From positions 1-32,681 of the forward strand of contig QCSL01000025.1 of the NCBI GenBank assembly GCA_003209165.1: DNA of 32,681 nucleotides. Direction: 5' to 3'. The translations under genes and the position numbers were made by a program. A model generated the notes under the pieces. That model saw only the letters and a program-made list of their open reading frames with translations. It made no database searches and was not told the origin of the DNA. Each line of letters starts with the position of its first letter. The stretch's first letter is position 1. The DNA is from Synechococcus sp. AG-670-B23 (GTDB lineage: Bacteria > Cyanobacteriota > Cyanobacteriia > PCC-6307 > Cyanobiaceae). This document shows, piece by piece, positions 5,327 through 17,771 of the stretch.

Positions 5327-5415
5327 CCATGACAGCAGCTCCTGCCGGTCGATACCGCTCTAGTCGATGCCGTACTTGATCTGCGCCCACGCCTTCCTTA
5401 GCAGCCGGTACCCCT

Positions 5416-5580
5416 ATGATGTTGAAATTCAACCATGTTGATCTCATAAAAGCTGAGACAAAGAGTGTTGGGTTCACCGGCCAGGATCATTCCCTGAAGG
5501 TGATCGACTCGCACGGCAGTGGCTTCGGCGTTGGCTTTTGCCATGGCAATCAGGTTCCCTATACAACAGGTGGGCAATAA
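5416..5580 (+). CDS. Possible small protein, 54 aa
   Basis: ATG 5416 (a second ATG follows at once) to TAA 5580. The product reads MMLKFNHVDLIKAE and later SHGSGFGVGFCHGNQVPY, with a glycine/histidine-rich C-terminal half. No Shine-Dalgarno sequence, family or membrane segment is visible. It lies in a decayed region and may be a fragment of a longer gene. Kept with low confidence because the frame is uninterrupted and composition is plausible. Confidence 0.25.
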   Translation: MMLKFNHVDLIKAETKSVGFTGQDHSLKVIDSHGSGFGVGFCHGNQVPYTTGGQ

Positions 5581-5703
5581 GTTCGCGGTGGGTGAGCAGC
5601 AATATCCCGTCGAACAACGCCAAAACGTCTGTCAATGCGTCCGTGTATGGCCGGTGAGTGGAAGCAAGAACTCTTCAGACCTTCGCGATGTCGGCGGAGA
5701 TCA

Positions 5704-5994
5704 TTAATCCAGCAGCGCGGTGAGCTGAATAAGAAGTTCATCAGCGGCGGTCTGCTCCTCGAGCTTTAAACCGACGAGGTTCTGGATGTCGGCACCGATG
5801 GCATCCGAGCGGTATACCAGCTCCGCACAGTGCGCGGTGATCTGATCCCGGTAGCTCTGCTTCCGCATCAGACCCGGCAGCTCCTCCGACCACATCCAAG
5901 TGATGTAGTTCTGGCTGGGACCGATGCGGCTCTGGTCAGAGTCGCGATCCCGGAAGTTCAGAAAGTAATCCAGCGAGCGCGAATAGACGCGGGG
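5704..5994 (-). pseudogene. Broken relative of the 15109-15456 operon protein
   Basis: The minus frame is open from 5994 to the stop at 5704 and encodes DYFLNFRDRD, ITWMWSEELP and YRDQITAHCAEL before a helical tail ending LLIQLTALLD. The core YRDQITAHCAEL matches YRDQLTAHVAEL of the small protein encoded at 15109-15456 in the live element, and the spacing to the C-terminus is similar. A TAG precedes the open frame at 5995-5997 with no normal start codon after it before ATG 5895, so the 5' end is probably frameshifted or lost. It ties this decayed region to the same family of elements. Function unknown. Confidence 0.6.
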
Positions 5995-6127
5995 CTAAAG
6001 ACGAAGCCAGCTGAGCTGGGGGTGGCATTTGGCGACTCTCATGACCGGTACCCCTTCTGCCAAGAGGGCATCGCATGGCACACCTCACGGTTCAGCCACG
6101 CAGATAGCAAGCCGAAAGAAGGCTGTC

Positions 6128-6472
6128 CTGACCTACACAGAGGAGCTGGAGCTGATCCGAGTGCTCCCGGAGACCTGGCGCAACGTCATCAAGATCTGCC
6201 GGGTGTTTGGTGTCCGCTCCTGGGAGGTGGCGTTCATCTCTATTGCCACCAACGACGACGGCGAACCCCAGCTCCGCGTCACCAAGGGCAAGACGTACAA
6301 CACCAGCGGGGGAGTGAAAGAAGAAACCGATCCCCGCTGACTGGAGGCCGTGGCGGTCGACGGCACCACCTTTGACCTGGTGGCGGGATGGAATCAGCTC
6401 AAGCTGCCACCCACCGTTTCCGGAAAGACCCTCGGGGCCGTCCTGCGGCGTCTCCCAAGCCTCAATTGCGTT
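6128..6472 (+). pseudogene. Decayed integrase fragment (copy 3)
   Basis: Encodes ELELIRVLPETWRNVIKICR, VRSWEVAFISIATNDDGEP and LRVTKGKTYNTSGGVKEETD, then a TGA at 6338-6340 followed in the same frame by LEAVAVDGTTFDLVAGWNQL and LGAVLRRLP. Copy 1 has TGG at the position of this TGA, so it is a nonsense mutation. The fragment corresponds to residues from about 248 to 358 of the intact integrase (ELIQAIEQ to KFLRRQP). The N-terminal region and the catalytic C-terminus are missing; an unrelated minus-strand remnant abuts its 3' end. Confidence 0.75.
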
Positions 6473-6654
6473 GTGCCTGAGCATCCGGCGCCAAGTCATC
6501 TGCGCAGGCGGGCGGGGTGGAACGTAGTGATAAGTCCTGATGGCGACCCACTGCGCATGCACCGTCGCCGTGTCGGGCTTGAAGTGACAGAGCTTCTGCT
6601 ACTGCTGCTCGGAGTACAGCCACCCTTCAACGGATTTAGTCCAGGTGCTTAGCC
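6470..6654 (-). pseudogene. Gene remnant on the minus strand
   Basis: From 6654 down to about 6470 one frame encodes TWTKSVEGWLYSEQQ, a TAG at 6601-6599, then QKLCHFKPDTATVHAQWVAI and RTYHYVPPRPPAQMTWRRML. The aromatic-rich, protein-like text on both sides of the stop argues for a former gene rather than a chance ORF. Both ends are lost: a TAA bounds it upstream and the integrase fragment replaces it downstream. I do not recognise the family. Confidence 0.45.
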
Positions 6655-6754
6655 CGCAGCCTTAATGGCCGGTTTTCACCCTGTTTTGACCTGTAACAAG
6701 AGCTACAAAAGCTTGGGTTTTGTCTTAGACCTAAGTCAGATACAAGAAGGAAAG

Positions 6755-6856
6755 ATGCTGAACGAAATGATTCTCACCACGACACTTTGTTTGACCATTG
6801 TTGGAGCTATGGCTCTCTTCTATGGCGAGATGAAGCTGCTTAAAAACAGCCACTAG
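6755..6856 (+). CDS. Tiny single-helix membrane protein, 33 aa
   Basis: ATG 6755 is preceded by AGAAGGAAAG, a good Shine-Dalgarno sequence at proper spacing, which decides the start over the longer frame from 6665. The product MLNEMILTTTLCLTIVGAMA continues ALFYGEMKLLKNSH: one transmembrane helix of about 20 residues and a short basic tail. Peptides of this size often associate with photosynthetic or transport complexes in cyanobacteria, but nothing here indicates a partner. No family recognised. Confidence 0.45.
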   Translation: MLNEMILTTTLCLTIVGAMALFYGEMKLLKNSH

Positions 6857-7559
6857 TCCGTCAGCAATATCGATCCAGGCCAGCAACTCCTTGATGTTTG
6901 GCCCTGCCCTAGTGGCTAATGCAACCAGGCAGCACCCTCCAGGGCCTAACGGCTCCTGAGGGAGGGGGGCTACTGAGACCGCGAGAAGAACTTTGTCCTT
7001 CCCGAGCGATGCGATATCGGTGCTCACACGTTCGCTTTGTTACTTAGCTTCTCGGCGAACGCACCAACTTTCTTCGGAATTCCCTTCAACAGAACGGTGT
7101 CTCCCGCGATCGCTCACGCAGGAGACAGGGGTTCTGCCAACACTCGGATCGCTCTTCCGAGGTCGTCGCGTGTGGAAGAACTCCCCATTTCCGCGTCTAG
7201 CAAATATGGGGCCAAGCAGCCTGTCGCGCAACATCTATTTTGGTCATTTTTTGATTCCAAAAAATCTCCCGTGAAGTCCTGTGCATCTGGTATGAGACGG
7301 CATGGACCGCTGGACTCTCATCCGCCAGATCATTGTTGAGGACTGACTTCTTGAGAGGTCGGATGATGTAGGTCATCACCTCTAGTCAAACCTCGACTAC
7401 TCAGCCTTTGCTGGAAGAGACAGCTTGTAGATGTTCACTGCTACAAGAGCTACACCGAAGCTGCAGAAGAAGACAATCAGGTCTTGTGAAGAGATGGACA
7501 TAACGCCTAGCCGGCTTTGGTTATTAAGGAATATAACGAGATTGGTGTATGGTTGTCGC
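6857..7559. other. Stretch without a supported gene
   Basis: About 700 bases in which the open frames lack starts, ribosome sites or protein-like composition. It contains the perfect inverted repeat at 7246-7265 and a weaker one, CCCCAT/ATGGGG, near 7182-7211. Probably decayed element sequence. Confidence 0.4.
7246..7265. repeat. Perfect 8-bp inverted repeat
   Basis: ATTTTTTG (7246-7253), loop ATTC, CAAAAAAT (7258-7265). Operator-like or a weak hairpin; no gene starts close by. Confidence 0.35.
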
Positions 7560-7721
7560 ATGAGCCAATCCACGAGTGAGTTTCCTGTCTTTGGCGGTTG
7601 CGAGTCAGGCCAAAGGAAGCGCTACTTAAAATCATTGGAGCAAGACCTAGCATCAGAGCTTGGACCCGACTGGCGAGAAAAAATCGCCAACAGCTTTGAG
7701 GTTTATGTCTTAGTGGATTAG
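7560..7721 (+). CDS. Small hypothetical protein, 53 aa
   Basis: ATG 7560 to TAG 7721. The product starts MSQSTSEFPVFGGCESGQRK and continues RYLKSLEQDLASELGPDWRE, ending NSFEVYVLVD. It is soluble, charged and predicted helical, with protein-like composition. It faces the truncated integrase at 7734-8373, and the integrase similarity stops about 13 bases beyond this gene, so sequence carrying this ORF probably replaced the integrase 3' half. Family unknown. Confidence 0.4.
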   Translation: MSQSTSEFPVFGGCESGQRKRYLKSLEQDLASELGPDWREKIANSFEVYVLVD

Positions 7722-7733
7722 TGAGGCAAATGG

Positions 7734-8373
7734 TTCGGGGCTTGCTGCCCTTGCCGAGGAGGCGAACGTTTCCTCCCTCATCCAGCGGTTCGATGTCCTC
7801 CCACCGCAGACCGCACAGCTCTGAGACCCGACAGCCCAGCAAGTAGGAACCGCGGACCATGACGTAGTCCCGCGCTGCGATGGCGGAGCCTTTTACCTTC
7901 GCGGCACTGATAACCCCGAGAACTGATGTCAGATCAGACTCAGCCAGCGGTTTGGCCAGCTTTGGTGCCGACATTCCTGTTCTTCGGGGGATTGGGTTGC
8001 GCGGCACTCCTGTCACAGCTGATCTCGTAGGTTCCGACGCCCATCGGTAGAGGGCACTAACCGCGCTGATCCGCCGGTTGAAGGAGCGCGGCATCAGCTC
8101 GCTGGCCTCCACTTGTTCCCGCAGAAGGGACACCCAGTCCTGAACCAACGCAGGATCCAGCTCCCGCAAATGCAGGTGGGGATGGTTTTGATCGCGCCAG
8201 CGGGTGAAGTGCCGCAGCTCTCGGCGGTAGCCGTCCTTGGTCTCCTGCGAGCCGGTGCGGGAGCACTGCTCCAGGAATCGCTTCAGGAGGAGCTTGTCCC
8301 CCCAGAGCACGGCACCAGCCTGGGCGGCATCGAAGAGGCGGCTGACGTACGCCAGGGCCTCCGCCTTATCCAT
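7734..8373 (-). pseudogene. Truncated XerC-like tyrosine integrase
   Basis: About 213 codons of a phage-type tyrosine recombinase: a SAM-like N-terminal DNA-binding domain (residues about 25-110, with DGYRRELRHFTRWRD and FNRRISAVSALYRWA) and the first half of the catalytic domain, with the box I arginine in LLGCRVSELCGLRWEDI (Arg182) and the beta-hairpin lysine in LLGKGSKPRTI. The frame stays open to 7507 but similarity ends near residue 213, so the HxxR box, second histidine and catalytic tyrosine are gone. It reads away from the left att copy 84 bases upstream, the usual placement for an integrase, and belongs to an older element. It is a different subfamily from the integrase at 8599. Confidence 0.8.
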
Positions 8374-8395
8374 GCCCGAGAAAACGGGCGGAACG

Positions 8396-8436
8396 TTGGC
8401 AACAGTTTTGGCAACACCCCTATTTTTTGGTGTTGC
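8396..8436. repeat. Putative arm-type sites of the truncated integrase
   Basis: TTGGCAACA occurs twice in direct orientation (8396-8404, 8407-8415; 11-bp period), and GGCAACACC (8409-8417) is inverted as GGTGTTGCC (8428-8436). They lie between the truncated integrase and the att repeat, where integrase arm sites or an autoregulatory operator would be expected. Role inferred. Confidence 0.4.
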
Positions 8437-8456
8437 CGTAAGTGCCGAGTTGTCAG

Positions 8457-8498
8457 TGTTGAGGGGGTCTTCCAGCCCCCGTGAGTCAATTGGGTGAT
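8457..8498. other. Left attachment-site copy (att)
   Basis: This 42-bp sequence, plus-strand start GTTGAGGGGG and end GGGTGATA, matches 16312-16353 at 39 of 42 positions in direct orientation. The right copy is the 3' end of the ssrA coding piece. It includes a GGGGG/CCCCC hairpin. It bounds the integrated element on the left and also lies beside the older truncated integrase, so it may have served two elements in tandem. Confidence 0.85.
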
Positions 8499-8524
8499 AC
8501 GACTGTCCGCCGTCTAGTCGCAGA

Positions 8525-8534
8525 CTGGAGTCTC
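8525..8534. repeat. Terminal inverted 10-mer, left
   Basis: CTGGAGTCTC here is the exact inverse of GAGACTCCAG at 16291-16300. Both lie 12-27 bases inside the att repeats, so each end of the element carries the same word pointing inwards. Possible integrase or excisionase site. Confidence 0.4.
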
Positions 8535-8598
8535 AGAATCAGCCCAGTCATAGCAACGGAATCCGAGGGAATCTCAGGGAAAGTGGGTTGAAGCGAAG

Positions 8599-9897
8599 GT
8601 GATCCTGGGTCACAATTGGGGTCACAAAACGGGTCATTTGGCTGATTTCGGTCCTGGGTTCCAGAGCGCGGTGAAGTCGGCTTACCCCGGCTGGAGCGTT
8701 GTGCGTCACACCGCCACCAGCAAGATCCGGCTCCGTGTTCGAAGCGGTGAACGATGCGTCGGTGAGCAGGCCGTGCTGCCCCTCACCTGGGAGGCCCGCA
8801 ACGTGGCGGAGGCGATGCAGTGGATCGGTCGGATCTACAAGCTGGTCCACGCCGAAGAGCACAGCCTGAAGACCGCTCGCGATGCGGTGCTGGGCAAGAC
8901 CACCACCCACGTTGAGAAGAAGGACTGGAGCTGGGACCAGATCTGCGAGAAATACCGGAACCACCTCCAGACCAGGAAAAACAGAATCAAGGACACCACC
9001 TTCGAGGCGTCCTATGGCCGCTACTGGGAGGTGATGCTCAAGCTGCTCCGCAGCAACACACCACCGCGCACCGGCGCTCAGCTGCTGGATGCCGTGCTGT
9101 CAGCCCCCAGGGTCAGCAAGAAGCCCGGGAAGATGTTCGGCACCCCCCTGAAGACCTGGGGCGAGCAAGACGCCAGCCGGTTGGAGTGCAGCCTGGCGAT
9201 CAAGAACCTGCTGACCTACGCGGTGTCGATGGACTACCGCCCAGGGGTGTGGCTGATTCCAGAAGCCCTCTACGAAGACCTCCGCGGGGCAGAGGGTGCT
9301 GGCGGCAAAGAGAAGAGTGACCTGACCGACATCGAGATCCTGGAACTCATCCAGGCCATCGAGCAGCGCAGCCCAGGCTGGGCATCAGTGCTGCGCCTCT
9401 GCGCCACGTTCGGGCTGAGGCCGTGCGAGGCAGACAGGAACCGCCACCTGGAGGTGAGAACCAACAGCCGCGGCCAGGAGCAGCTCCACTGCAGCTATCA
9501 GAAGAAGGCTGGGAAACGCCTCACCCCGCAGCGTTGGCTGGTGCCCCTGCCATTCATCGACCACGGTGGCGAGAAGGTCTGGTGGGACGGCTGGCGGCAG
9601 CTGAACGATCTGCCGTGGCCCCCGGTTGAGCGGGTCGATGGTGCTGCACTCGGGAAGTTCCTGCGCCGACAACCGGAGTGGAAAGCCATGGTGGCTGAGA
9701 AGGCCAAACAGGGGCTCCAGCTCAAGCCCTACGCCTTCAGAGATTCATTCACCCACCGCTGCGCTCGCTTCGGGATCGCTGATGCAGACGCGGCTCTGGC
9801 GAGCGGCCATAGCGTAAAAGTTCACCGCGCTTCGTACATCACAACCGGCGTTGAAACGATGCTCGATGCGTTTGAACGTGCAGCAGGAAGGAATTGA
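8599..9897 (+). CDS. Tyrosine integrase of the ssrA-integrated element, up to 432 aa
   Basis: Site-specific recombinase expected to catalyse integration into the ssrA 3' end. It has an N-terminal arm-binding region, a core-binding region (about residues 110-215) and a catalytic domain. Box I arginine is Arg274 in ATFGLRPCEADR; box II reads KPYAFRDSFTHRC, giving Tyr378-x-x-Arg381 instead of the usual His-x-x-Arg; the second histidine is His404 in ASGHS and the nucleophile is probably Tyr413 in RASYITTG. The relatives at 481, 3568 and 6128 share this box II form. The start is uncertain: GTG 8599 overlaps the GGGTCAC array, and later starts (TTG 8638, GTG 8671) are possible. It begins 100 bases inside the left att copy and reads inwards. 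It appears intact. Confidence 0.85.
   Translation: MILGHNWGHKTGHLADFGPGFQSAVKSAYPGWSVVRHTATSKIRLRVRSGERCVGEQAVLPLTWEARNVAEAMQWIGRIYKLVHAEEHSLKTARDAVLGKTTTHVEKKDWSWDQICEKYRNHLQTRKNRIKDTTFEASYGRYWEVMLKLLRSNTPPRTGAQLLDAVLSAPRVSKKPGKMFGTPLKTWGEQDASRLECSLAIKNLLTYAVSMDYRPGVWLIPEALYEDLRGAEGAGGKEKSDLTDIEILELIQAIEQRSPGWASVLRLCATFGLRPCEADRNRHLEVRTNSRGQEQLHCSYQKKAGKRLTPQRWLVPLPFIDHGGEKVWWDGWRQLNDLPWPPVERVDGAALGKFLRRQPEWKAMVAEKAKQGLQLKPYAFRDSFTHRCARFGIADADAALASGHSVKVHRASYITTGVETMLDAFERAAGRN
8607..8636. repeat. 12-bp-period GGGTCAC array, left end
   Basis: GGGTCAC at 8607-8613 and 8619-8625 and GGGTCA at 8631-8636, exactly 12 bp apart. The same word with the same period occurs near the right end (16201-16261). 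Probably integrase arm-type sites or replication iterons; overlap with the integrase start suggests autoregulation. Role inferred. Confidence 0.6.
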
Positions 9898-10074
9898 ACG
9901 GAACTCGGGGGTAGACGGGAAGAATCTCCCCTGCTATGTATAAAACATCAATCGAGATGACACCCGGAAGAATCACTCTCCAAGCGATTCTGAAGGCACT
10001 CATTTCATAAGCCGGACTGCTGATTTCGATCGGCGGGTTGATGGGAGAGATACCAGACCACGCCCTTTAGCTAC

Positions 10075-10356
10075 ATGTCCCGCAAGGCCAACAAATACGC
10101 AACAGCAATCGATCGGAAAATCAATGGCCGGAGCATTCGCCTCCCCGCTGGCATTTCCGATTTCGAACGCTCTGGAGCGGATTTTGTGGCGAGCATCTTC
10201 GCCAGGGCTCATGCGGAAAACCCTGATGAGGATTGGCTTTCACAATGCCCTCCTCACATCAAGGCGGCAGCGAAGCAAAAGGGTATTACCTCCCGCCAAC
10301 ACCGTGAATTGGGTAGATACCGCGAGGATGAAAAAGATCCTCGGCATCAGCGATAA
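10075..10356 (+). CDS. Small hypothetical protein, 93 aa
   Basis: ATG 10075 to TGA 10356. It begins MSRKANKYATAIDRKINGRS and is basic and polar throughout, with RSGADFVASIFARAHAENPD in the middle; no membrane segment. A 177-base gap separates it from the integrase; that gap holds a TATAAAA-like box near 9939-9945, a possible promoter for the replication cluster. Its 3' end overlaps the start of the excisionase-like gene by 29 bases in another frame, suggesting coupled translation. Family not recognised; position between int and a HTH gene hints at a role in excision or regulation. Confidence 0.5.
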   Translation: MSRKANKYATAIDRKINGRSIRLPAGISDFERSGADFVASIFARAHAENPDEDWLSQCPPHIKAAAKQKGITSRQHRELGRYREDEKDPRHQR

Positions 10357-10540
10357 AACGCTGCTCAGCCTCAAGAATCACACCACAATGTTCCGCGAGG
10401 GGCACGACTGGCGACGCAAAGGCGTCTCAGCCCGCAGCCCTCTGCAGTGGAACGTTGCGTCCACAGAGCAAGCCTTCACCAACTGGAAGCGCCCTGCGGC
10501 CAGCACCGTGGAGACCTTCGAGCGCGTGGGGGTTAAGTGA
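10328..10540 (+). CDS. Excisionase-like / HTH DNA-binding protein, 70 aa
   Basis: Start chosen at ATG 10328 (GTG 10304 would add eight residues). The N-terminus MKKILGISDKTLLSLKNHT is a plausible winged-helix recognition segment, followed by FREGHDWRRKG and SPLQWNVASTEQAFTNWKRP, the layout of recombination directionality factors and MerR-type excisionases (helix-turn-helix, then a wing with a tryptophan in the specificity strand). It probably steers the integrase towards excision or represses the replication genes. The stop overlaps the next start as TGATG, so the two are translationally coupled. Assignment rests on pattern and position, not on a catalytic motif. Confidence 0.5.
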   Translation: MKKILGISDKTLLSLKNHTTMFREGHDWRRKGVSARSPLQWNVASTEQAFTNWKRPAASTVETFERVGVK

Positions 10541-10857
10541 TGACTAAGGACATCAAAATGGTCATCCACTGTGGTGACGAGAAACTCGAAATCCTGGGCC
10601 ACGATCTGCACCACAACCTGATCCTTAGTGCCATCCGTGACGCCTACAAGGCGAAAGGGAACCGCTGGGGAATGGCGCTCTTCCAGAAGCTATCGGCGCT
10701 CAACTCGCTGCATTACGCCTCTGTGGATGCCGCCTGCAGCGAGCACTACTTCGAGGAAGCAGTGACCAACGGGCTGGAGGAGATCAACGCTCCCAGGATC
10801 TACTACGAGCTGCAACCCGAGGAACTGCCTCAGCGCGCTCCTTATCAAAAGGGCTGA
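10540..10857 (+). CDS. Hypothetical protein, 105 aa
   Basis: ATG 10540 shares its A with the preceding stop (TGATG). The product opens MTKDIKMVIHCGDEKLEILG and contains LILSAIRDAYKAKGNRWGMA and a C-terminal EINAPRIYYELQPEELPQRA. It looks like a small alpha/beta cytosolic protein without metal or nucleotide motifs. Its stop lies 3 bases before the primase-polymerase start, so it is almost surely in the replication operon. It could be a regulator or accessory factor of the primase. No family recognised. Confidence 0.6.
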   Translation: MTKDIKMVIHCGDEKLEILGHDLHHNLILSAIRDAYKAKGNRWGMALFQKLSALNSLHYASVDAACSEHYFEEAVTNGLEEINAPRIYYELQPEELPQRAPYQKG

Positions 10858-10860
10858 CCC

Positions 10861-11994
10861 ATGAAAAAACCCGCCGGTGGCACGGCGGGTCTGGGCAGTG
10901 ATTTCGATGAATCAATCCTAGATCCGACCGCCGGGGAGCAACCGTCTCCCCAGTCACAGCCTGTTTTGGACCTAGACCAGCAGGCGATTCTCAACAAGCT
11001 GGACGCAGCATCCGAGTCCAACTTGGGACCGTCTCAAAAAACCGAGCCACATCCCAGTGGCTTCGGTGAGATGAGACAGGAAAACCGCCGCGTACCTGCA
11101 CCAGCAGCAGTAACGCCAGAGCTGTTGGCCCGGCTCGAACCCATCAGCAAGATCCACCGGCTTCTGCCAGTTGGTGGTGGCGATGAGTTCAAGGCACCGC
11201 TGGTCTCAGATTGGCCTAACCACCCAGGGGTGTCGATCCCCGACATCCTCAGGTTCAAGAGGCTCCGATCTATTGGCGTGGCCATGGATCACCTCGTCTG
11301 CATCGACGTTGATGGCATCACAGCGGTCGAGAGACTGCTGGCCCTGGGCCTCCTCGATCCTGAACTGATCAACACCTGGCGGATCGATCGTGACAACGAT
11401 CCCCACCGGTTCAAGTTGTTGTGGGAACCAACCCCAGATCAGCTCCGTCTGCTCCCGAAGCGGATCAGCGGCAAGGATCCGACTAAGCCCCCGGTGAAGG
11501 AGGGCAGGACTGTTCTGCAGAAAGGCGAAGCGGTGGAGCGGTTCGCTCTCCACACCGGTCGTCAGGTCGTCGTCATTGGCGACCACTACAGCGGCGGACA
11601 CTATTGCTGGCCCACTGGCGGCGGCCCAGAAGCACTGTCAGCACTGCCATCCCAGTGGTTCGACTACATCGTCGAACAGGAACGGGACTACCCCAAGCCA
11701 GCAGCAGGGGCACACCGCACCGTCAGCACACGACGGGATGACTGGAGAACGCTCCAGCACTGCCCGATTTGCGGGCGCAACTCAAACGTTGTTTGTCAGA
11801 TCCATACCGATGGCGAAACCATCCGATGCTTCAGAGGTTCAACCTTCTTCCCCCCTGATCTCCAACCCGGAGAGCTCACAGGGGACTGGCGATACAAGCG
11901 CGATCAGCACGTCGGCTGGGGCACCTTCGCCATCTTCCACAGAGCCAACCTCGGGTCTCCCCTCCAACGACTCAGGAGGCAGCACCGTGACTGA
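10861..11994 (+). CDS. Primase-polymerase-like replication protein, 377 aa
   Basis: Likely element-encoded primase of the archaeo-eukaryotic (PrimPol) fold. After a disordered, Gln/Pro-rich N-terminus of about 85 residues come WPNHPGVSIPDILRF, the metal-binding-like strand LVCIDVDG (Asp149, Asp151), PHRFKLLWEP near 181-190, and LHTGRQVVVIGDHYSGGHYC with the wall of glycines typical of the family. A zinc finger follows (Cys301-x-x-Cys304, Cys312, His315, Cys323). The order fits PF09250-like proteins found next to VapE helicases. A strong hairpin overlaps codons 3-10. The 3' end overlaps the helicase start by 8 bases. Polymerase activity is inferred; I cannot place every catalytic residue. Confidence 0.65.
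   Translation: MKKPAGGTAGLGSDFDESILDPTAGEQPSPQSQPVLDLDQQAILNKLDAASESNLGPSQKTEPHPSGFGEMRQENRRVPAPAAVTPELLARLEPISKIHRLLPVGGGDEFKAPLVSDWPNHPGVSIPDILRFKRLRSIGVAMDHLVCIDVDGITAVERLLALGLLDPELINTWRIDRDNDPHRFKLLWEPTPDQLRLLPKRISGKDPTKPPVKEGRTVLQKGEAVERFALHTGRQVVVIGDHYSGGHYCWPTGGGPEALSALPSQWFDYIVEQERDYPKPAAGAHRTVSTRRDDWRTLQHCPICGRNSNVVCQIHTDGETIRCFRGSTFFPPDLQPGELTGDWRYKRDQHVGWGTFAIFHRANLGSPLQRLRRQHRD
10864..10890 (-). terminator. Minus-strand terminator inside the primase start
   Basis: Perfect stem ACCCGCC (10869-10875)/GGCGGGT (10884-10890) with an 8-base loop; on the minus strand it is followed by five to six T (plus-strand A at 10864-10869). Intrinsic terminator for antisense transcription, overlapping codons 2-10 of the primase gene. 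Confidence 0.6.
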
Positions 11995-13426
11995 TCTCCT
12001 GCGTGTGGACTGGATGCCGGATGGCTGGTTCACCGACAAAGAAGGCAACGATCTCGGCACCGGTCTGGCGCCTGGGGACCTTTGCGTGCAGTTGAGGAAA
12101 GGGCTCGGAACACGATTGCGATGGAACGAACTCCTCCTTCAACCAGAGCTGAATGGGCAGCCAATCCCAGGGACAGCCTTGGAGCAGCTGTATGTCGCCT
12201 TATCGGAGCGGGGATGGCGGATCAGCCAAAAACCCGCGGAAGATGCTGTGCTCCGCGTCGCCCAAGAGAATCGATTTCACCCTGTCGTGGTGTACCTGGA
12301 GACCCTGGTCAAGGCTCCCGATCTAGACCCCATCGACCTGGATGAAATCGGCAGCTACTGGGGGGTCCAGGACGATCAGCTGTCGTGCCGGATGCTTCGA
12401 GTGATGCTGCTGGGAGCCGTTGCCCGCATCTACGACCCCGGCACCAAATTCGACACCATGGTGGTGTTCAAAGGTGAGCAGGGGAGAGGCAAATCAACCT
12501 CGCTCCGCAAGCTGTTTGGGCCGCAGTGGCTGGTCGATACCCAGCAGCCGAAGCACAAGGATCAGCTGCTCGTTCTGCACAGGTGCTGGTGCTACGAGGC
12601 GGCGGAGCTGGACTACATGACCAGCCGCAAGGAATCGGGGCTGATCAAGGGCCTGCTGAGTTCAGCGGTGGACACCTTCCTCGCACCCTATGGGCGCTTC
12701 CTTGAGGCCCATCCGCGCCGATCAATCATGGTCGGCACCTGCAACCGAGACGACTTCCTCAGGGATGCCACCGGCCACCGGCGCTTCCTCGTTATCGAGA
12801 CGGGCCAGATCGATTGTGACCGGATTGAGGCTGATCGCGACCGCATCTGGCGTGCTGCTGTTCGGGCCTATCAGGAGGGGGAGCCTGCGTTCCTGTCAGC
12901 AGAAGATCAGGAAGCCAGCAACCAGCGGAACAAGAGCTTCGAACTGGAGAACCCATTCGAGGCAAGCGTGGGGCACTGGCTCCGCTATGGCGTGATCCCA
13001 AATGATCAGTTCACCTTCGACGAGTGCCTGAAAGGGATCGACCGGTGCAACCTTCCCAACACCGATCGCCACCATGTCAAAGAGGCGTTGAAGGAGCACG
13101 GCTGCAAGCCGCCGAAACAGCAAGTCCGCCGCAACGGCGTGAAGGTCAGGCTGTGGACTCACTACCGAGCTGCCTCGGCTGCCTCACCCTCTGCGAGGGG
13201 GCATGAGGCGCCTCAATCAGCAGCGACAGCAAAGGGGCCGGGCGATTTGTCTCATGCCTCTCCTCCTTTTAGAGAAAGGAGTGAATTACAAGAAACAGGG
13301 GGGCATCAACAGTCCCTGCCGGGATGTGCGGAAAAGGGTGAGGCGGCGAGACAACAGCCCAAACCCCCTGTGGGATCTGGATTTGATGTGACCTCGGATG
13401 ACTTGGGATGTGAGGCAAGCTCATAA
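11987..13426 (+). CDS. VapE/VirE-type replicative helicase, 479 aa
   Basis: P-loop ATPase of the virulence-associated E family, commonly paired with primases in phage satellites and prophages. GTG 11987 is chosen because AGGAGG lies 7 bases upstream (11974-11979) and it overlaps the primase stop; the frame is open further back but without support. Walker A is GEQGRGKST (residues 163-171); a Walker B-like CYEAAELDYM follows near 202-211; the family signature GTCNRDDFLRDATGHRRFLV spans about 250-269 and carries the arginine finger and sensor residues. The last 90 residues are low-complexity Pro/Ser/Gln. With the primase it forms the replication module of the element. Appears intact. Confidence 0.85.
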   Translation: MTDLLRVDWMPDGWFTDKEGNDLGTGLAPGDLCVQLRKGLGTRLRWNELLLQPELNGQPIPGTALEQLYVALSERGWRISQKPAEDAVLRVAQENRFHPVVVYLETLVKAPDLDPIDLDEIGSYWGVQDDQLSCRMLRVMLLGAVARIYDPGTKFDTMVVFKGEQGRGKSTSLRKLFGPQWLVDTQQPKHKDQLLVLHRCWCYEAAELDYMTSRKESGLIKGLLSSAVDTFLAPYGRFLEAHPRRSIMVGTCNRDDFLRDATGHRRFLVIETGQIDCDRIEADRDRIWRAAVRAYQEGEPAFLSAEDQEASNQRNKSFELENPFEASVGHWLRYGVIPNDQFTFDECLKGIDRCNLPNTDRHHVKEALKEHGCKPPKQQVRRNGVKVRLWTHYRAASAASPSARGHEAPQSAATAKGPGDLSHASPPFRERSELQETGGHQQSLPGCAEKGEAARQQPKPPVGSGFDVTSDDLGCEASS

Positions 13427-13451
13427 TGAGAAAGCATTGGTCCCATCAACG

Positions 13452-13679
13452 ATGCAAGCCGTCAAAGCAATCCTGGCAGGAACAGTCTTAACTCTTACAA
13501 GCAGTGTTTCGGCACTCGCAAATCCTTACCTGCCTCAAAACAACCGATATGCGCCTCAACAAAACCGCTACTCTGAGTACCAAAATCCATACTCAAAATA
13601 TCAAAATCCTTACAGCGAGTATCAAAATAAATACAGCGATAAATACATTATGAAGTGCCAAGAGACTGGTGGCTGCTAA
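13452..13679 (+). CDS. Secreted Tyr/Asn/Gln heptad-repeat protein, 75 aa
   Basis: ATG 13452 gives a clear Sec signal peptide (MQAVKAILAGTVLTLTSSVS, cleavage after ALA). The mature 50 residues are built of about five 7-residue units of the form QNPYSKY or QNPYSEY, imperfect near both ends, closing with KCQETGGC (two cysteines). The repeats are also visible in the DNA as a 21-bp period. A longer start at 13398 would bury the signal. It begins 25 bases after the helicase gene. Likely exported and surface- or matrix-associated; tyrosine-rich repeats can aggregate or bind surfaces, but that is inference. It is cargo-like compared with the replication genes. Confidence 0.65.
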   Translation: MQAVKAILAGTVLTLTSSVSALANPYLPQNNRYAPQQNRYSEYQNPYSKYQNPYSEYQNKYSDKYIMKCQETGGC

Positions 13680-13924
13680 TTCAAGCGGCTCTCGGAACTA
13701 GTCACCGCCTTGAATGAACGTGCAACAAAGTTGCTCGTCTGTTCAATTTGACAATTTGCTCCGAGCTTCAGTCCTGCGTGCTTGCTGGAATGGCAGGTAC
13801 GCAGGACAGTCCATTCATCGTGGTGAGACCCAGCAACGGCAACGACTGGGATCCCAGCAATTGAGATGAGATCTGAGCCGGTTGAGACAGGTTTTTTCGT
13901 GTCCAGATCGGGTCCAGCGCCCAC
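13676..13924 (-). CDS. Possible small protein, 82 aa
   Basis: The minus frame from GTG 13924 to TAG 13676 encodes STGSDLISIAGIPVVAVAGS, HDEWTVLRTCHSSKHAGLKL and GANCQIEQTSNFVARSF. The composition is unusually protein-like for a non-coding frame and the upstream part of the same frame is not. It overlaps the stop of the heptad-repeat gene convergently by 4 bases. No Shine-Dalgarno sequence is obvious at the GTG, and the true start may be elsewhere or lost. It may be a real gene or a remnant; family unknown. Confidence 0.35.
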   Translation of the reverse strand: MGAGPDLDTKKPVSTGSDLISIAGIPVVAVAGSHHDEWTVLRTCHSSKHAGLKLGANCQIEQTSNFVARSFKAVTSSESRLN

Positions 13925-14095
13925 GGGTCTCAGCCCGGAATTGAGATCGCGATGGGACTGGCACAGCGGCCTTGCGTCCTTGGATAAGCCAGTAGAGCTT
14001 GGGAATGAGGTTTTTTTGGGTCTCGAGTAATATCCCCATTCTTGAAGCCTGACCAAAGCTGCAAGGTTTCACGTCTAGTTGTATTTCCAACCCTG

Positions 14096-14323
14096 ATGAA
14101 AACACTTCTCTTAATTGCTTCGCTGTTAGTTGTGCCTTCCGCGGTTGAAGCTCAAACAACCTGCTCCACCTACGGAGGTCAGACCTCCTGCTACGGAAGC
14201 GGTGGCTCCTCCTTCAACTCCAACACTTACGGCGGCCAGACCAACTACTACGGAACTGACAGCAACGGAAATTCCTACTCAGGTAGTTGTTCTTCTTACG
14301 GCGGACAAACGACCTGTTACTGA
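14096..14323 (+). CDS. Secreted YGGQT-repeat protein, 75 aa
   Basis: ATG 14096 opens a signal peptide MKTLLLIASLLVVPSAVEA, with cleavage expected after AEA-like VEA. The mature peptide is rich in Gly, Ser, Thr, Tyr and Cys and repeats STYGGQTSCY, NTYGGQTNYY and SSYGGQTTCY, with four to five cysteines flanking the repeats. A longer start at 14042 would bury the signal sequence. A strong terminator begins at its stop codon, so it is the last gene of its transcript. Proteins with C-x-x-YGGQT-x-C units occur repeatedly in marine Synechococcus to my knowledge, with unknown function; they are probably periplasmic or external. Confidence 0.7.
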   Translation: MKTLLLIASLLVVPSAVEAQTTCSTYGGQTSCYGSGGSSFNSNTYGGQTNYYGTDSNGNSYSGSCSSYGGQTTCY

Positions 14324-14343
14324 GCCTTCGGGCTCTTTTTTTT
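14322..14343 (+). terminator. Rho-independent terminator
   Basis: GAGCC (14322-14326), TTCG tetraloop, GGCTC (14331-14335), then eight T. It begins at the stop codon of the YGGQT protein and separates the rightward genes from the convergent minus-strand operon. Confidence 0.85.
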
Positions 14344-14345
14344 GC

Positions 14346-14702
14346 TTAGCGCCCGTAATAGCCACCCTTCGGCCTTCGGTTGTTCGCACCGATTCCCAGC
14401 AAGGCAGCCAACTCGCGGGTAGCGGCTACAGCTGACCCCAGCTGGTTCGTTTCCAACCCCTGCGCAGCGATTGTCTGCAGCTGGTGGATGAGGAGAGACG
14501 CCATCTCGGGGTTTTCGAGCCCCACCTTGTCCACATCGTCCCGCACTACTTTCCAGGCCCTGGCAGTGATCCTGCGGGCTGTACGACGACTGCACCCCTC
14601 TCTTTCGGCCACTTTCCCGACGACGGTGCTCGTGGAGTGACCCAACAGCAGGAGCTTCACCGCATAGTTGGTGCGCTCTCGGACTTGGTGCTTGGTGGTC
14701 AT
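14346..14702 (-). CDS. Small terminase subunit-like protein, 118 aa
   Basis: ATG 14702 has AGGAGG 5 bases upstream and overlaps the preceding stop as ATGA, which decides the start. Residues 11-50 form a helix-turn-helix with a resolvase-like recognition stretch (VAEREGCSRRTARRITARAW). The second half, MASLLIHQLQTIAAQGLETN followed by QLGSAVAATRELAALLGI, is the long helical pair seen in phage TerS proteins, which oligomerise, bind pac DNA and hand it to the large subunit. No large terminase, portal or capsid gene is in the element. A TerS-like gene on a small integrase element suggests redirection of a helper phage's packaging. It could instead be a plain HTH regulator. Confidence 0.5.
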   Translation of the reverse strand: MTTKHQVRERTNYAVKLLLLGHSTSTVVGKVAEREGCSRRTARRITARAWKVVRDDVDKVGLENPEMASLLIHQLQTIAAQGLETNQLGSAVAATRELAALLGIGANNRRPKGGYYGR

Positions 14703-14881
14703 GGTGCCTCCTGTGCCCGGGCCCACAGCCTGCAGGTTATGGGCAGTGTTTTCGCTGAGAACGTCTGCGGCGCAGCAGATCTGAGCCTGTCGGTTAAGTG
14801 GCAGGTTATAGGGTTCTTTTTCGCTGAGATCGACTGCAGCGCAATGGATTTACCCTGGCCGGTCATGGTGGGGCCCCTCAT
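14699..14881 (-). CDS. Small protein with a 23-residue internal repeat, 60 aa
   Basis: ATG 14881 overlaps the previous stop as ATGA, and its own stop overlaps the TerS-like start as ATGA, so it sits inside a coupled operon. The product contains two copies of a unit, ALQSISAKKNPITCHL and APQTFSAKTLPITCRL, 23 residues (69 bp) apart. It is basic with two cysteines and no membrane segment. ATG 14866 is an alternative start. The double role of this DNA as coding repeat and possible binding site just before the TerS-like gene is notable. Family unknown. Confidence 0.5.
   Translation of the reverse strand: MRGPTMTGQGKSIALQSISAKKNPITCHLTDRLRSAAPQTFSAKTLPITCRLWARAQEAP
14732..14849. repeat. Two direct 49-bp repeats, 69-bp period
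   Basis: Copies at 14732-14780 and 14801-14849 match at about 37 of 49 positions, with GCAGGTTAT and TTTTCGCTGAGA nearly invariant. They lie inside the small ORF and just upstream of the TerS-like gene. They could be a pac-like or operator site as well as coding repeats. Confidence 0.5.
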
Positions 14882-15084
14882 AGCAATCCAGCAGCAGTGA
14901 AGGCTTCGATCACTTCTGCTTCAGCAGCAGGATCGAGGTTCATATCAGCGATGGTGTCTTGAACGATGCGCCTGCTGATGGCGAACCATTCCTTGCGCGT
15001 TGCTGAGCGTGGCCAGACGTTTATTTCAAGGACTGGTGTTGATGACACGTGATCAAGGATTTTCGGCATCGGTAGTGGTTGCAT
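14878..15084 (-). CDS. Hypothetical protein, 68 aa
   Basis: ATG 15084 to a TGA at 14878 that overlaps the next start (ATGA). The product begins MQPLPMPKILDHVSSTPVLE and includes NVWPRSATRKEWFAISRRIV and an acidic helix PAAEAEVIEAFTAAGLL. It is a small soluble protein, fourth in the minus-strand operon and 24 bases after the preceding gene. No Shine-Dalgarno sequence is seen, so translation may depend on coupling. No family recognised. Confidence 0.55.
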   Translation of the reverse strand: MQPLPMPKILDHVSSTPVLEINVWPRSATRKEWFAISRRIVQDTIADMNLDPAAEAEVIEAFTAAGLL

Positions 15085-15108
15085 CTGGAAACGAGCTGAA
15101 GACCGGAG

Positions 15109-15456
15109 TTATGAGGTTTCCAGCAGATGCATCAGCCGATGCCTGAGATCCACAGCTGCATCTCTCTGATCGAGCAGGCCGCCGGACTGCCGTTCAATCT
15201 CCCGGCTGAGATTGGAGATCTGACGTTCCAGCTCTGCAACATGGGCGGTGAGCTGGTCTCTGTAGAAGGGTTGAGCGACAGCCTTGGGCAACCAGTTGAC
15301 CCAGGTCTCCTCGACGAAGCTCGCTGGCATACCGCTGGAGCCTGGATCAGCCTCCAGCGCATGATCGCGATGGGTTAGCTGCCGATCGAGAAGTCGTCTG
15401 CTGTCCTCTGGTTGGCAATGGAGCCAACCGAGAACAGGGTGCGGTCGAGCAAGCAT
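15109..15456 (-). CDS. Helical operon protein, 115 aa
   Basis: ATG 15456 shares a base with the upstream stop (TGATG). The first 40 residues are polar and basic; the second half is a long amphipathic helix, YRDQLTAHVAELERQISNLS through ERQSGGLLDQRDAAVDLRHR, probably a coiled coil. A broken relative is found at 5704-5994 in the older element, so the family travels with these elements and is not random cargo. The segment TWVNWLPKAVAQPFYRDQL is the best conserved. Presence beside a TerS-like gene fits a structural, packaging or interference role, but nothing in the sequence proves one. Confidence 0.6.
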   Translation of the reverse strand: MLARPHPVLGWLHCQPEDSRRLLDRQLTHRDHALEADPGSSGMPASFVEETWVNWLPKAVAQPFYRDQLTAHVAELERQISNLSREIERQSGGLLDQRDAAVDLRHRLMHLLETS

Positions 15457-15854
15457 CAGTAATACCTGCCAGTCATCGGGTTGATGCCACTGATGAGCTG
15501 CTTCTCACGGACCTTGGCAGCACGTTCGTTGGCCTCTCTGAGACGTTCTGTGCGCATCTCCAGGGCCTTGGCTGCCATGGCTCTGGCTTCCTTCTGCTCA
15601 TCAATGCGGTGCTTCACCGAGGCATCCAACCCGCAGTAGTGAGCCAGCGCAGCATCAGAACGTGAAATTAGGCTAGCCAGGGTGAGATTTTCTTGGATCG
15701 CCTTGAAGTTCACAGGCGTTCCGTACTTTCTGCTGGGTAGCAACCCTTTTGCGCCTGGGATCTGCTCAATCCTGGCCTCAAGACGCCGGGCGGAAGCCTC
15801 AGCATCAGATGCTTCCCGATAGAACTGATCAATGGCCTGATCTAGATCCATCAT
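15456..15854 (-). CDS. Coiled-coil operon protein, 132 aa
   Basis: ATG 15854 overlaps the preceding stop as ATGA; its own stop overlaps the next start as TGATG. The protein is almost entirely helical: DAEASARRLEARIEQIPGAK near the N-terminus, a middle with a histidine and cysteine (ALAHYCGLDASVKHRI), and an alanine/arginine/glutamate-rich helix (EQKEARAMAAKALEMRTERL) before the tail GINPMTGRYY. No catalytic motif or membrane segment. Such proteins are often scaffolds or oligomeric adaptors. Family unknown. Confidence 0.6.
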   Translation of the reverse strand: MMDLDQAIDQFYREASDAEASARRLEARIEQIPGAKGLLPSRKYGTPVNFKAIQENLTLASLISRSDAALAHYCGLDASVKHRIDEQKEARAMAAKALEMRTERLREANERAAKVREKQLISGINPMTGRYY

Positions 15855-16021
15855 TCGCTGACCTCAACTGCAGTACGACGGCTTTGGGGGTTGGACAGTG
15901 GGCAGCCCTGAGGGATTGAGGGACAATCATCATCGATTGATTGCTTCTCAAATGCAGCTTCTTGCTGCAACTCCGAAAGCACCAATTCAGCAAAGATCGG
16001 AAGACTCCGTTTAGGCATCAT
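15851..16021 (-). CDS. First gene of the minus-strand operon, 56 aa
   Basis: Too short for many gene callers. ATG 16021 (or ATG 16018) to TGA 15851, overlapping the next start as ATGA, which supports reality. The product begins MPKRSLPIFAELVLSELQQE after the first Met and continues FEKQSIDDDCPSIPQGCPLS: a short helix followed by a Pro/Cys-rich tail. The leader just upstream contains a two-hairpin element on the opposite strand at 16039-16106. As leader gene of a coupled operon it may set expression of everything down to the TerS-like gene. Family unknown. Confidence 0.5.
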   Translation of the reverse strand: MMPKRSLPIFAELVLSELQQEAAFEKQSIDDDCPSIPQGCPLSNPQSRRTAVEVSE

Positions 16022-16038
16022 TGAACTAAACTAAGAAC

Positions 16039-16106
16039 ACAGATCTTTCATCTGTCGGTGTCGGTGATCCTCATGGGGCGGCTTGATGCACCGCCCCTAT
16101 TTTATT
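16039..16106 (+). ncRNA. Candidate two-hairpin small RNA
   Basis: Hairpin one: ACAGAT (16039-16044), loop CTTTC, ATCTGT (16050-16055). Hairpin two: GGGGCGG (16075-16081), 9-base loop, CCGCCCC (16091-16097), followed by TATTTTATT, an intrinsic terminator on the plus strand. No plus-strand gene lies upstream within the preceding 1.6 kb. A weak TAAACT box sits at 16027-16032. It is divergent from the six-gene operon and might regulate it or the helper phage. Inference from structure only. Confidence 0.45.
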
Positions 16107-16200
16107 GCCACGGAATAACGAAAGAAAGGGATCTATCACAGTGGTTACCTGGCTTCTGCCAACTTCTCTAAGACTCCCCGCTCCTCACCAGCAGTCGTTT

Positions 16201-16261
16201 GTGACCCCGGATGGGTCACTTAGGCCGAAAACGACCAGCTTCGGGTCACACTAGAGGTCAC
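16201..16261. repeat. 12-bp-period GGGTCAC array, right end
   Basis: GTGACCC (16201-16207) and GGGTCAC (16213-16219) form an inverted pair; GGGTCAC (16243-16249) and AGGTCAC (16255-16261) are direct, 12 bp apart. Same word and period as 8607-8636 at the left end. They lie 51-111 bases inside the right att site, as integrase arm sites would. Confidence 0.6.
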
Positions 16262-16290
16262 AACGCCGAAGCCTCGGGAAGATCGCATCC

Positions 16291-16300
16291 GAGACTCCAG
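16291..16300. repeat. Terminal inverted 10-mer, right
   Basis: GAGACTCCAG, the exact inverse of CTGGAGTCTC at 8525-8534. It lies 11 bases inside the right att repeat. Confidence 0.4.
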
Positions 16301-16311
16301 CGTTTGCAATG

Positions 16312-16353
16312 GTTGAGGGGGCCTTCCAGCCCCCATGAGTCATTTGGGTGATA
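16312..16353. other. Right attachment-site copy within ssrA (att)
   Basis: 42 bp matching 8457-8498 at 39 positions, same orientation. It forms the 3' end of the ssrA coding piece, including the GGGGGC/GCCCCC hairpin (16317-16334), so integration regenerates this gene end. Three mismatches show that the two copies have diverged or come from different donors. Confidence 0.85.
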
Positions 16354-16590
16354 AGGCTGACTTCACCCCATCTCCGTTAAAGGTCAGGCAGCAACAGGGG
16401 CTGCTTGACGGGAGAAACGAACGATGTTGTTCGCAGTTACGGGTTTGCTCTCACCGAGCAGGCTTCAGTCACCCTCCTCATGCCCCGTCGAAACCATTGC
16501 AGCCCCGTGAGGGGGAATGGAGCTGAGCGGAATCGAACCGCTGTCCGAAACACTGGTGTGGATCACCTAGTCCGACGAAGCCGGACTCTG
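16317..16590 (-). ncRNA. ssrA: tmRNA, circularly permuted two-piece gene
   Basis: Transfer-messenger RNA rescues stalled ribosomes. Read on the minus strand, the acceptor piece comes first: T-arm GGACAGCGGTTCGATTCCGC and 3' strand CAGCTCC plus discriminator A (ending 16518). An 11-base intervening segment (16507-16517) follows, then the coding piece starts at 16506 with GGGGCTG, which pairs over 7 bp with the acceptor strand (one G-U). The tag frame (16384-16434) encodes ANNIVRFSRQAAPVAA and a stop, the known marine Synechococcus tag. Permuted genes processed to two pieces are known in this lineage. The outer ends are approximate. The 3' end carries the att site of the adjacent element. Confidence 0.93.
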
Positions 16591-16604
16591 TCATTCTGAC
16601 AGGA

Positions 16605-17771
16605 GTGGTGACCTGGAGCACAACGCCCTTGGGTCGAACAAACCGGCTATCCGCTGTTGCAGTAGTGCCACAAGGCCTAGAAGCAGCCGGCGGCGAAGAG
16701 CTCATCGCCCTCGGGGCCCATGCCGTGAAACCTGGCAGACGCGCCGTCAGCTTCGAAGCAGACATGGCCTGCCTCTACCGGCTGCACCTGCAGGCTCGAC
16801 TGCCCTTCCACCTGCTGCGGCAGGTGGCGCGCTTCCCCTGCCAGGGCCGGGAGGACCTCTACGAAGGGATCCGCCAAGCCCTCGACTGGGAACGCTGGCT
16901 GCATCCGTCGATGACATTCCGGGTGGATGTGACGGGAACGGCACCGGGGCTAAACCACAGCCATTTCACAGCGTTGCAGGTCAAAAACGCGCTTGTGGAT
17001 GCACAACGGGATCTCTGGGGGGAGCGTTCCTCCATCGATCTTGCAGACCCTGACCTCTCCCTGCACCTCCACCTCGGCCACGGGGAAGCACAGCTGAGCC
17101 TCGATGGCAGTGGTAGCAGTCTGCATCGCCGCGGCTACAGAGCAGCCATGGGAGCTGCACCGTTGAAGGAAAATCTGGCCGCCGGGCTGATTCGCCTGAC
17201 GGGATGGGATGGGAGCCAGCCCATTGTGGATCCCTGCTGTGGATCCGGAGTGCTCCTGATCGAAGCGGCCCTGACAGCATTACAGCAAGCGCCGGGCTTG
17301 AAGCACCACTTTGCACTCGAGAGCTGGGCCGATTTTCAGCCCGAGCTTTGGGATAAGGAAGTCAATCGCGCCCGGCAACGCCGCAGGGGAGACCTCACAC
17401 TTCCGCTACTCCTGGGGATCGAGGCAAATCCCACAATTGCCGATCAGGCCCGTGCCAACGTAGCCGCCGCCGGGCTGAGTGGAGTCATCCAGATCTGCAC
17501 CGGCCGCTTCAGCGATCAACCTCTTCCGGATGGGCCGGGAGTCTTGGTCTGCAATCCCCCATACGGCCAGAGGATCGGTGATGAAGCTGAACTCAAAGAG
17601 CTGTATCGAGAGCTCGGCAACTATGCGAAAACCAAAGCCCCTGGTTGGCGGCTTTGGTTGCTCAGCGGAAATCGGAACCTGACGGGTGCCCTGCGTCTCA
17701 AGGCTGAACAGCGGATCCCAGTGAGCAACGGTGGGATTGACTGCCGCTGGCTGCGCTACGAGATCCGCTGA
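16605..17771 (+). CDS. THUMP-domain RNA methyltransferase, RlmL/YpsC-like, up to 388 aa
   Basis: SAM-dependent methyltransferase expected to make N2-methylguanine in 23S rRNA. An N-terminal THUMP-like RNA-binding region (about residues 55-165) precedes the UPF0020 catalytic domain: the SAM loop VDPCCGSGVLLIEAA (from Asp209), an acidic strand LLLGIEANP, and the target-base motif NPPYG (Asn317-Tyr320). GTG 16605 lies almost on the divergent ssrA promoter region, and no good ribosome site supports it, so the start may be up to about 18 codons later, before AVAVVPQGLEAAG. Length and domain order are normal for the cyanobacterial family. Confidence 0.85.
   Translation: MVTWSTTPLGRTNRLSAVAVVPQGLEAAGGEELIALGAHAVKPGRRAVSFEADMACLYRLHLQARLPFHLLRQVARFPCQGREDLYEGIRQALDWERWLHPSMTFRVDVTGTAPGLNHSHFTALQVKNALVDAQRDLWGERSSIDLADPDLSLHLHLGHGEAQLSLDGSGSSLHRRGYRAAMGAAPLKENLAAGLIRLTGWDGSQPIVDPCCGSGVLLIEAALTALQQAPGLKHHFALESWADFQPELWDKEVNRARQRRRGDLTLPLLLGIEANPTIADQARANVAAAGLSGVIQICTGRFSDQPLPDGPGVLVCNPPYGQRIGDEAELKELYRELGNYAKTKAPGWRLWLLSGNRNLTGALRLKAEQRIPVSNGGIDCRWLRYEIR

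Follow-up and report, generated by a model that had tools for sequence, protein, structure and literature searches.

The phage-inducible chromosomal islands (PICIs) and the Staphylococcus aureus pathogenicity islands (SaPIs) carry an operon that ends in terS, the gene of the small terminase subunit (TerS), and tycheposons of Prochlorococcus were reportedly described by Hackl et al. in Cell in 2023. Satellites and tycheposons of marine bacteria have already been published (PMC10803314, PMC11389934, PMC10872708), and marine picocyanobacteria are said to have integrase islands and few recognisable prophages (PMC2784084). Here we analyse a stretch of 32,681 nucleotides (nt) from Synechococcus sp. 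AG-670-B23 (contig QCSL01000025.1; the whole stretch is called the window below), in which a 7.9-kb integrative element lies at the 3' end of ssrA, the gene of the transfer-messenger RNA (tmRNA). The element combines its own integrase and probable replication genes with an operon ending in a gene for a TerS-like protein of 118 amino acids (aa), and we consider it probably a phage satellite of the tycheposon/PICI kind that encodes a TerS and with it its own packaging specificity.

Judged by the PICI layout as generally known, the element shares with PICIs and SaPIs an integrase, a replication module, the lack of structural genes and, as far as its TerS-like gene is a terS, the terS-ending operon, whereas its operon proteins show no link in Pfam or PHROGs to PICI morphogenesis or interference proteins, its replication would depend on PrimPol and VapE, and no helper was identified. 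With tycheposons it has in common a tRNA-type target gene at one border, a tyrosine recombinase, picocyanobacterial hosts, a suspected satellite nature and a size within 4–200 kb (PMC10872708, PMC10803314, PMC11389934, and partly general knowledge). It differs from them in targeting ssrA (its relatives use several tRNA genes), in being compact and free of large metabolic cargo, and in its recurring operon with a TerS-like gene at the end. The phage-inducible chromosomal minimalist islands (PICMIs) of Vibrionaceae are likewise small marine satellites with an integrase, an AlpA-type helix-turn-helix (HTH) gene and a primase, but they lie next to fis, their primase is of another Pfam type, and no terS homologue was found in them (PMC10803314); the window element, at ssrA and with a TerS-like gene at its centre (relatives at ssrA or tRNA genes), has neither the fis integration nor an int-alpA-prim core without terS. 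Virion-encapsidated integrative mobile elements (VEIMEs) are also marine integrative elements without structural genes (PMC10803314); encapsidation defines them, and our element was not seen in a viral collection scanned with short exact patterns. An integrase-bearing element of 11 kb from open-ocean virus particles, tentatively assigned to Crocosphaera and proposed to be a PICI (PMC7174320), is similarly cyanobacterial and compact; that one was seen in the virus fraction, and the likeness is one of description and not of compared genes. The operon itself was not described in the titles and abstract openings of the literature searched, and an earlier description, for instance in Hackl et al. 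(2023), may exist.

Boundaries and gene content of the element

A repeat search of the window found a direct repeat of 48 nt (43 of 48 identical) bounding the element, with an attL-like copy at 8458–8505 and an attR-like copy at 16312–16359, which places the limits originally given (8457 and 16353) within 1 and 6 bases of the observed ones. The right copy, also supported by comparison of boundaries with relatives, forms the 3' end of ssrA, which is permuted, complete and encoded on the minus strand (16293–16607 by ARAGORN; complete Rfam cyano_tmRNA match at 16318–16602, 321.7 bits), and the left one is a second copy of this end. When the flanks 7719–8505 and 16360–16760 were joined with the element left out and aligned to genomes of the genus, the main alignment ran across the join in each of the 11 distinct genomes examined, with 71–88% identity over 766–1197 columns (for example 1172 columns at 84% in G003 and 1197 columns at 88% in G028). 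The left flank lay only partly inside this alignment in eight of them, and the 14 loci aligned include three second copies from the same genome. Since the 11 genomes were chosen from the 34 of the genus for adjacent matches to both flanks (at least one more such genome, G004, stands outside the test), the result demonstrates the existence of the empty site and not its frequency. In sum, the interval 8458–16359 is a site-specific integrative island at the ssrA 3' end that leaves the target gene intact; it has its own integrase and exact boundaries, and the corresponding empty site exists.

No large terminase, portal, capsid or tail gene was found among the window proteins with Pfam, PHROG or NCBIfam, in agreement with the original prediction, which had noted the lack of the first three. 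Neither did any such family appear among 25 of the 39 PHROG families listed for 148 open reading frames (ORFs) of 12 elements, 16 of these ORFs being from the window; the 14 further families matched one ORF each. The 148 were taken from about 183 ORFs, with 25 (from L101 and L128) and 10 short ones (from L107 and L111) left out, and the same scan returned integrases, helicases, primases, a topoisomerase, terminase small subunit (two) and cargo.

The readings first made for the integrase, the excisionase-like gene, PrimPol, VapE and the TerS-like operon were all confirmed. The tyrosine integrase (8599–9897, plus strand, 432 aa) matched no Pfam, PHROG or NCBIfam model itself; R274, R381, H404 and Y413, which we take to be the residues expected of a tyrosine recombinase, are invariant in all 25 aligned sequences, that of the window included, and PHROG integrase families match up to 11 of the 148 ORFs of the element set. 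The excisionase-like HTH gene (10124–10540, plus strand) has a family for which an iterated profile gave 31 ORFs, spread over 25 loci; HTH_17 matched two of six relatives scanned (5e-5 and 5e-4, below the Pfam cut-off) and none of the other four. Many of its relatives are only 78–90 aa long, and the true start probably lies inside this ORF; its place is ambiguous because an ORF of 93 aa with no assigned function (10075–10356, plus strand) overlaps it in another frame. The 93-aa ORF had no Pfam match and, by eye only, looks like a gene on another contig of the same genome, C9 (L004:9654–9983).

Replication would fall to two adjoining genes. The primase-polymerase, PrimPol (10861–11994, plus strand), has a DxD motif (D149, D151) and a Cys4 motif (C301, C304, C312, C323), all six residues being invariant in the 22 sequences aligned, the window's among them. 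It is 46–57% identical to stand-alone relatives; several relatives are such separate ORFs and others are parts of long ones, as in a fused 664-aa relative (L032, 33% identical) that matches both PF09250 (2.3e-10) and VapE (1.8e-48). The VapE-type helicase (11987–13426, plus strand, 479 aa; PF05272 3.4e-59 and PHROG DNA helicase 1.1e-60, both scored on the longer ORF 11576–13426) begins 8 nt before the end of PrimPol. The overlap in different frames had raised the suspicion of a frameshift, which was rejected because the PrimPol of C9 stops at the equivalent position and a GTG at 11987 gives VapE a start in its own frame; PrimPol and VapE are two coupled ORFs and not a fusion.

The TerS-like protein and its operon

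The 118-aa protein is encoded at 14346–14702 on the minus strand, its start ATG at 14702 being preceded by GGAGG as a putative ribosome-binding site. A profile built from 25 members of its family (A1) and searched against the 431 ORFs of three viral contigs matched one of them, L196:9389–9841, with an E-value of 1.7e-14 over about 108 residues, the next best value being 0.1. L196 is the uncultured phage contig IMGVR_UViG_3300035211_000086, picked by sequence similarity alone and not by neighbourhood, and in it the matched gene immediately precedes the gene of the large terminase (PHROG 2.3e-98), with genes for portal and head morphogenesis coming next; the two terminase ORFs overlap when read from the earliest start. 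It is the sole phage showing a homologue of the TerS-like protein, and a further scan returned the same contig.

An AlphaFold model from three sequences (mean predicted local distance difference test, pLDDT, 75.9; predicted template modelling score 0.48) consists of an HTH, a long helix and a helical hairpin, and this predicted fold fits TerS. In BFVD three matches passed an E-value of 0.001, none named beyond 'putative DNA-binding protein', while five of the 50 matches listed were named terminase small subunit (E 0.12–0.44); the top match came from hot spring virus BHS1, a possible lead to a helper. No curated TerS family matched the protein in Pfam, PHROGs, NCBIfam or a PDB profile search, and the PHROG matched by most family members (11 of 25) is phrog_34910, of unassigned function. 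The corresponding protein in L107, L111, L122 and C9 is a different one, which PHROGs label as terminase small subunit in C9 (8e-5) and L111 (9e-5); the L122 copy reached only 0.08, and L107 was scanned only within a set. Two types of TerS occur in the same element group with no detectable similarity to each other. That a phage has a homologue where its terS would be expected is the observed basis for regarding the protein as a possible packaging-redirecting factor, and its identity as TerS is supported but not proven.

The TerS-like gene is the last of six on the minus strand, in the order o56-o132-o115-o68-o60-TerS. The five small genes predicted upstream of it do exist, and four of the five junctions overlap, by 4 nt at o56/o132, o68/o60 and o60/TerS and by 1 nt at o132/o115; between o115 and o68 there is a gap of 24 nt. 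The first gene, o56 (15851–16021, 56 aa), has 14 ORFs in 14 loci and a partial copy on contig C34 of the same genome. Next come o132 (15456–15854, 132 aa), present in 9 of 34 genomes of the genus, and o115 (15109–15456, 115 aa), with 17 ORFs in 16 loci and found in 6 of 151 genomes sampled across the family. Relatives of o68 (14878–15084, 68 aa; 11 ORFs in 10 loci) are 41–79% identical to it, and the C9 gene in its place has no detectable similarity to it. The short o60 (14699–14881, 60 aa) contains two 23-aa repeats and joins terS by an ATGA overlap; a clear relative was seen only in L034 and a weak one in L035.

At E ≤ 0.001, o56, o68, o115 and o132 had no Pfam or PHROG match, known PICI capsid and interference families included (SaPI proteins were not compared directly). 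PADLOC gave no defence match for ten proteins, two of them from the operon (o115 and o132), and so lent no support to defence cargo among the proteins scanned. The AlphaFold model of o132, from two input sequences, is nearly all-helical (pLDDT 79.9); no BFVD match was better than E 0.7, and a known fold was rejected for it.

Just upstream of terS lie two DNA repeats of 43 nt (14732–14774 and 14801–14843, minus strand), 79% identical and spaced by 69 nt. The same spacing and place were seen in L034, that is, in two of the ten regions examined, and an approximate search allowing up to 6 mismatches found, beyond duplicate loci of these two elements (L166 among them), only L033 and L035/L022, with 5–6 mismatches. 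Tentatively, these repeats are a candidate TerS recognition (pac) site; they also encode part of o60, and a coding origin is therefore as likely as a recognition site.

Recurrence of the operon and neighbouring genes

Relatives of the operon in other ssrA and tRNA islands, the lack of which would have spoken against the original prediction, were found. Of 400 genomes sampled across the family, 103 (in 22 of 59 genera) contain the TerS-like gene, and PrimPol was found in 42 of 251 (17 of 59 genera); a scan of a collection of named genomes added one locus, in an uncultured Synechococcus metagenome-assembled genome. Across the mapped loci the plan recurs, with int, xis and PrimPol and/or VapE on one side and TerS, o115 and o132 facing them, for example in L098 (genus g9) and L114 (genus g17), both at tRNA-Ala, in L032 at ssrA and in C9 of the same genome; in L126 (genus g45) the operon is on a short contig. 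Altogether the TerS operon recurs in tRNA/ssrA islands of at least four picocyanobacterial genera, and where a mapped locus holds TerS as well as o132/o115, TerS comes behind them with the same orientation. One 5.5-kb element consists of integrase, excisionase and operon with no recognised replication gene, and another of 4.7 kb has the operon beside a broken integrase.

In 19 of 27 loci tested, the 3'-terminal part of the tRNA or tmRNA gene has a second, direct copy of at least 24 nt. Fourteen of these 19 were analysed as elements, of 4.7–12.8 kb (L035, L103, L113, L115 and L121 were left out). The TerS-like protein occurs in ten of the 14, the other TerS type in two and neither in two, with o132, o115 and TerS together in seven. 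PrimPol and/or VapE are found in nine; L106 has a topoisomerase-like gene with a partner that is RepA-like by eye, L038 an AAA ATPase, and L028, L030 and L129 no recognised replication gene. The integrase of L030 is broken into pieces and L129 is without a recognised one.

Around 33 TerS-like genes, from 31 loci selected by TerS, an integrase or excisionase relative lies within 12 kb in 16 cases, a replication gene within 12 kb in 11 and a tRNA or tmRNA gene within 3 kb in 10. Conversely, a TerS-like gene lies no more than 12 kb away at 12 or more of 29 PrimPol places. These places include the window and C9 and are the first 30 of 53 matches listed, minus one that is the latter half of a gene counted before; chance alone would give about 0.6 by our estimate, and the 12 are a minimum because the TerS-like matches used are only those among the matches listed.

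This pattern suggests a satellite family defined by its packaging operon, o56-o132-o115-o68-TerS, and not by its replication genes, the operon being freely combined with PrimPol-VapE, with other or with no recognised replication genes. The TerS family and its partners would then be a hijacking toolkit that Pfam, PHROGs (as terminase), NCBIfam and PADLOC did not recognise in these scans, possibly with a repeat-type recognition site in the short gene next to terS. We put this proposal forward tentatively, at a little below an even chance.

Some relatives carry further genes. Metabolic-looking cargo in L097, L106, L030 and L129 comprises gluconolactonase-like, RraA/cytidylyltransferase-like, methyltransferase and tetratricopeptide repeat (TPR)-methyltransferase genes. 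Contig C9 (L004 1–20000) is a dense pile of related elements with two vapE sets, both TerS types, three integrases and a short XerC-like ORF (by eye), and a topoisomerase/RepA-like pair; its second operon copy has a pilin-like gene (by eye) before terS.

Within the window element three more plus-strand ORFs complete the gene list. One of 106 aa (10537–10857) has no assigned function and no relatives among the loci compared. The other two sit between the replication module and the operon, each with a start that resembles a signal peptide by eye, and may be cargo: the ORF at 13398–13679 (Met likely at 13452), again without relatives among the loci compared, and one with YGGQT repeats at 14042–14323 (Met likely at 14096), which occurs in two of 34 genomes of the genus, its own included, and has a decayed relative beside a TerS remnant in G024.

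To the left of the element, window positions 1–8457 contain decayed earlier elements, as read from integrase remnants at 3670–3927 and 6107–6484 (one stop each) and o115 remnants at 5707–6039 (one stop) and 373–492. Directly beyond attL is a gene for a XerC-like tyrosine recombinase (7507–8373), possibly derived from an old element; it appears to be broken towards the C terminus, since only 215 of 288 aa match the relative beside ssrA in L032, and at least part of the gene adjoins ssrA in the 11 genomes of the empty-site test. A Cyano-2 RNA (Rfam RF01702; 6965–7167, minus strand) lies beside the island, and an AT-richer stretch of this flank holds a 364-aa ORF (4232–5326) whose product looks, by eye, like a secreted metalloprotease with calcium-binding repeats.

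Proposed satellite lifestyle and competing explanations

An element with integration genes, probable replication genes and a packaging operon and with no shell genes most likely travels in the shells of an infecting virus. The satellite interpretation made originally has gained a TerS homologue in front of a phage large terminase and a recurring operon; the lifestyle itself, that is helper, excision and packaging, we infer from the genes, no packaged copy having been found. In the mechanism we envisage, an unknown tailed helper phage would infect the cell, the excisionase-like gene would be switched on, the integrase and excisionase would excise the element, and PrimPol and VapE would copy it into multimers. 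The operon o56-o132-o115-o68-o60-TerS would then be expressed, and the satellite TerS might replace or compete with the helper small terminase on the helper large terminase, recognising satellite DNA, possibly at the 69-nt-spaced repeats beside terS, so that this DNA would be loaded into helper capsids. The o132 and o115 proteins could assist as its partners, with the terminase or capsid of the helper as their target.

Several results weigh against this interpretation. No satellite relative was found in phage records or viral contigs: among 50,697 phage records there was no match to TerS, one TerS relative, o132, PrimPol or the L196 protein (another TerS relative gave chance-level rows only), and the viral-contig scans, with short exact patterns that miss moderately distant relatives, yielded no related satellite and no packaged copy. 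Neither the TerS of cyanophage P-SS2 nor that of phage contig L135 was matched by the TerS profile; both phages were set aside as helpers and therefore no helper is identified. Structure prediction, proposed earlier as a check, did give a TerS-type fold rather than an unrelated one, but the PDB match ranked highest, to the phage G20C small terminase, falls short of significance (E 0.54). The best PHROG of the L196 protein is labelled RNase E (1.8e-7), the PHROG late transcriptional activator is weakly matched by the TerS-like family (best 0.002; 5 of 25 members at E ≤ 0.1), and 11 of the 33 TerS-like genes have no integrase, replication or tRNA neighbour at the distances tested, some of them on short contigs.

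Besides the L196 phage, the viral-contig scans returned only two contigs with a distant PrimPol. L135 is a high-GC phage contig of 44,997 bp with terminase and portal, in which an 891-aa protein (9908–12583), 42% identical to residues 104–272 of the window PrimPol, is encoded just before TerS and the large terminase; L134 (6.6 kb) has a near-copy of it. Gene exchange between phages and satellites is a possible explanation of this relative. A plasmid collection gave no match.

The weak activator matches, together with weak HTH_23/HTH_36-type Pfam matches in the family, leave a regulatory role possible for the TerS-like protein. One may thus picture an element that moves without phages, either by chance or by excision followed by uptake of DNA that is free or carried in vesicles, its TerS-like protein being an HTH regulator of its own operon, and the failure to find a packaged copy or a helper agrees with this. 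We hold it to be unlikely, given that about 108 residues are homologous to the product of a phage gene standing where terS would, and given the constant place of TerS behind o132/o115 and the different, PHROG-recognised TerS that some other elements carry in its stead.

A prophage remnant that has lost its head and tail genes would equally have integrase, excisionase, replication and terminase-like genes, and the flank to the left does hold remnants of earlier elements. Yet the same compact plan stands between repeats in several genera at different tRNA genes, there are intact reading frames and a clean empty site, and no large terminase, portal or capsid appears among the PHROG families listed, all of which makes this origin very improbable. 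No better are the prospects of a satellite packaged non-specifically by its helper, with an operon mainly for interference or defence and TerS as a decoy that poisons helper packaging: a TerS homologue could indeed be a dominant competitor and the five partner proteins have no assigned function, but PADLOC was empty for the proteins scanned and the two dissimilar TerS types within one element group would stay unexplained. A satellite with its own packaging specificity is the reading we prefer.

How picocyanobacterial islands pass between cells is an open question, to which a terS-ending operon in at least four genera offers a concrete route, packaging by a helper, together with named genes. 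If this is true, the islands transfer by transduction and probably lower the yield of the helper phage. Not every copy of the TerS-like gene lies in a recognisable element, though the gene is common enough (103 of 400 genomes) that the effect could be wide.

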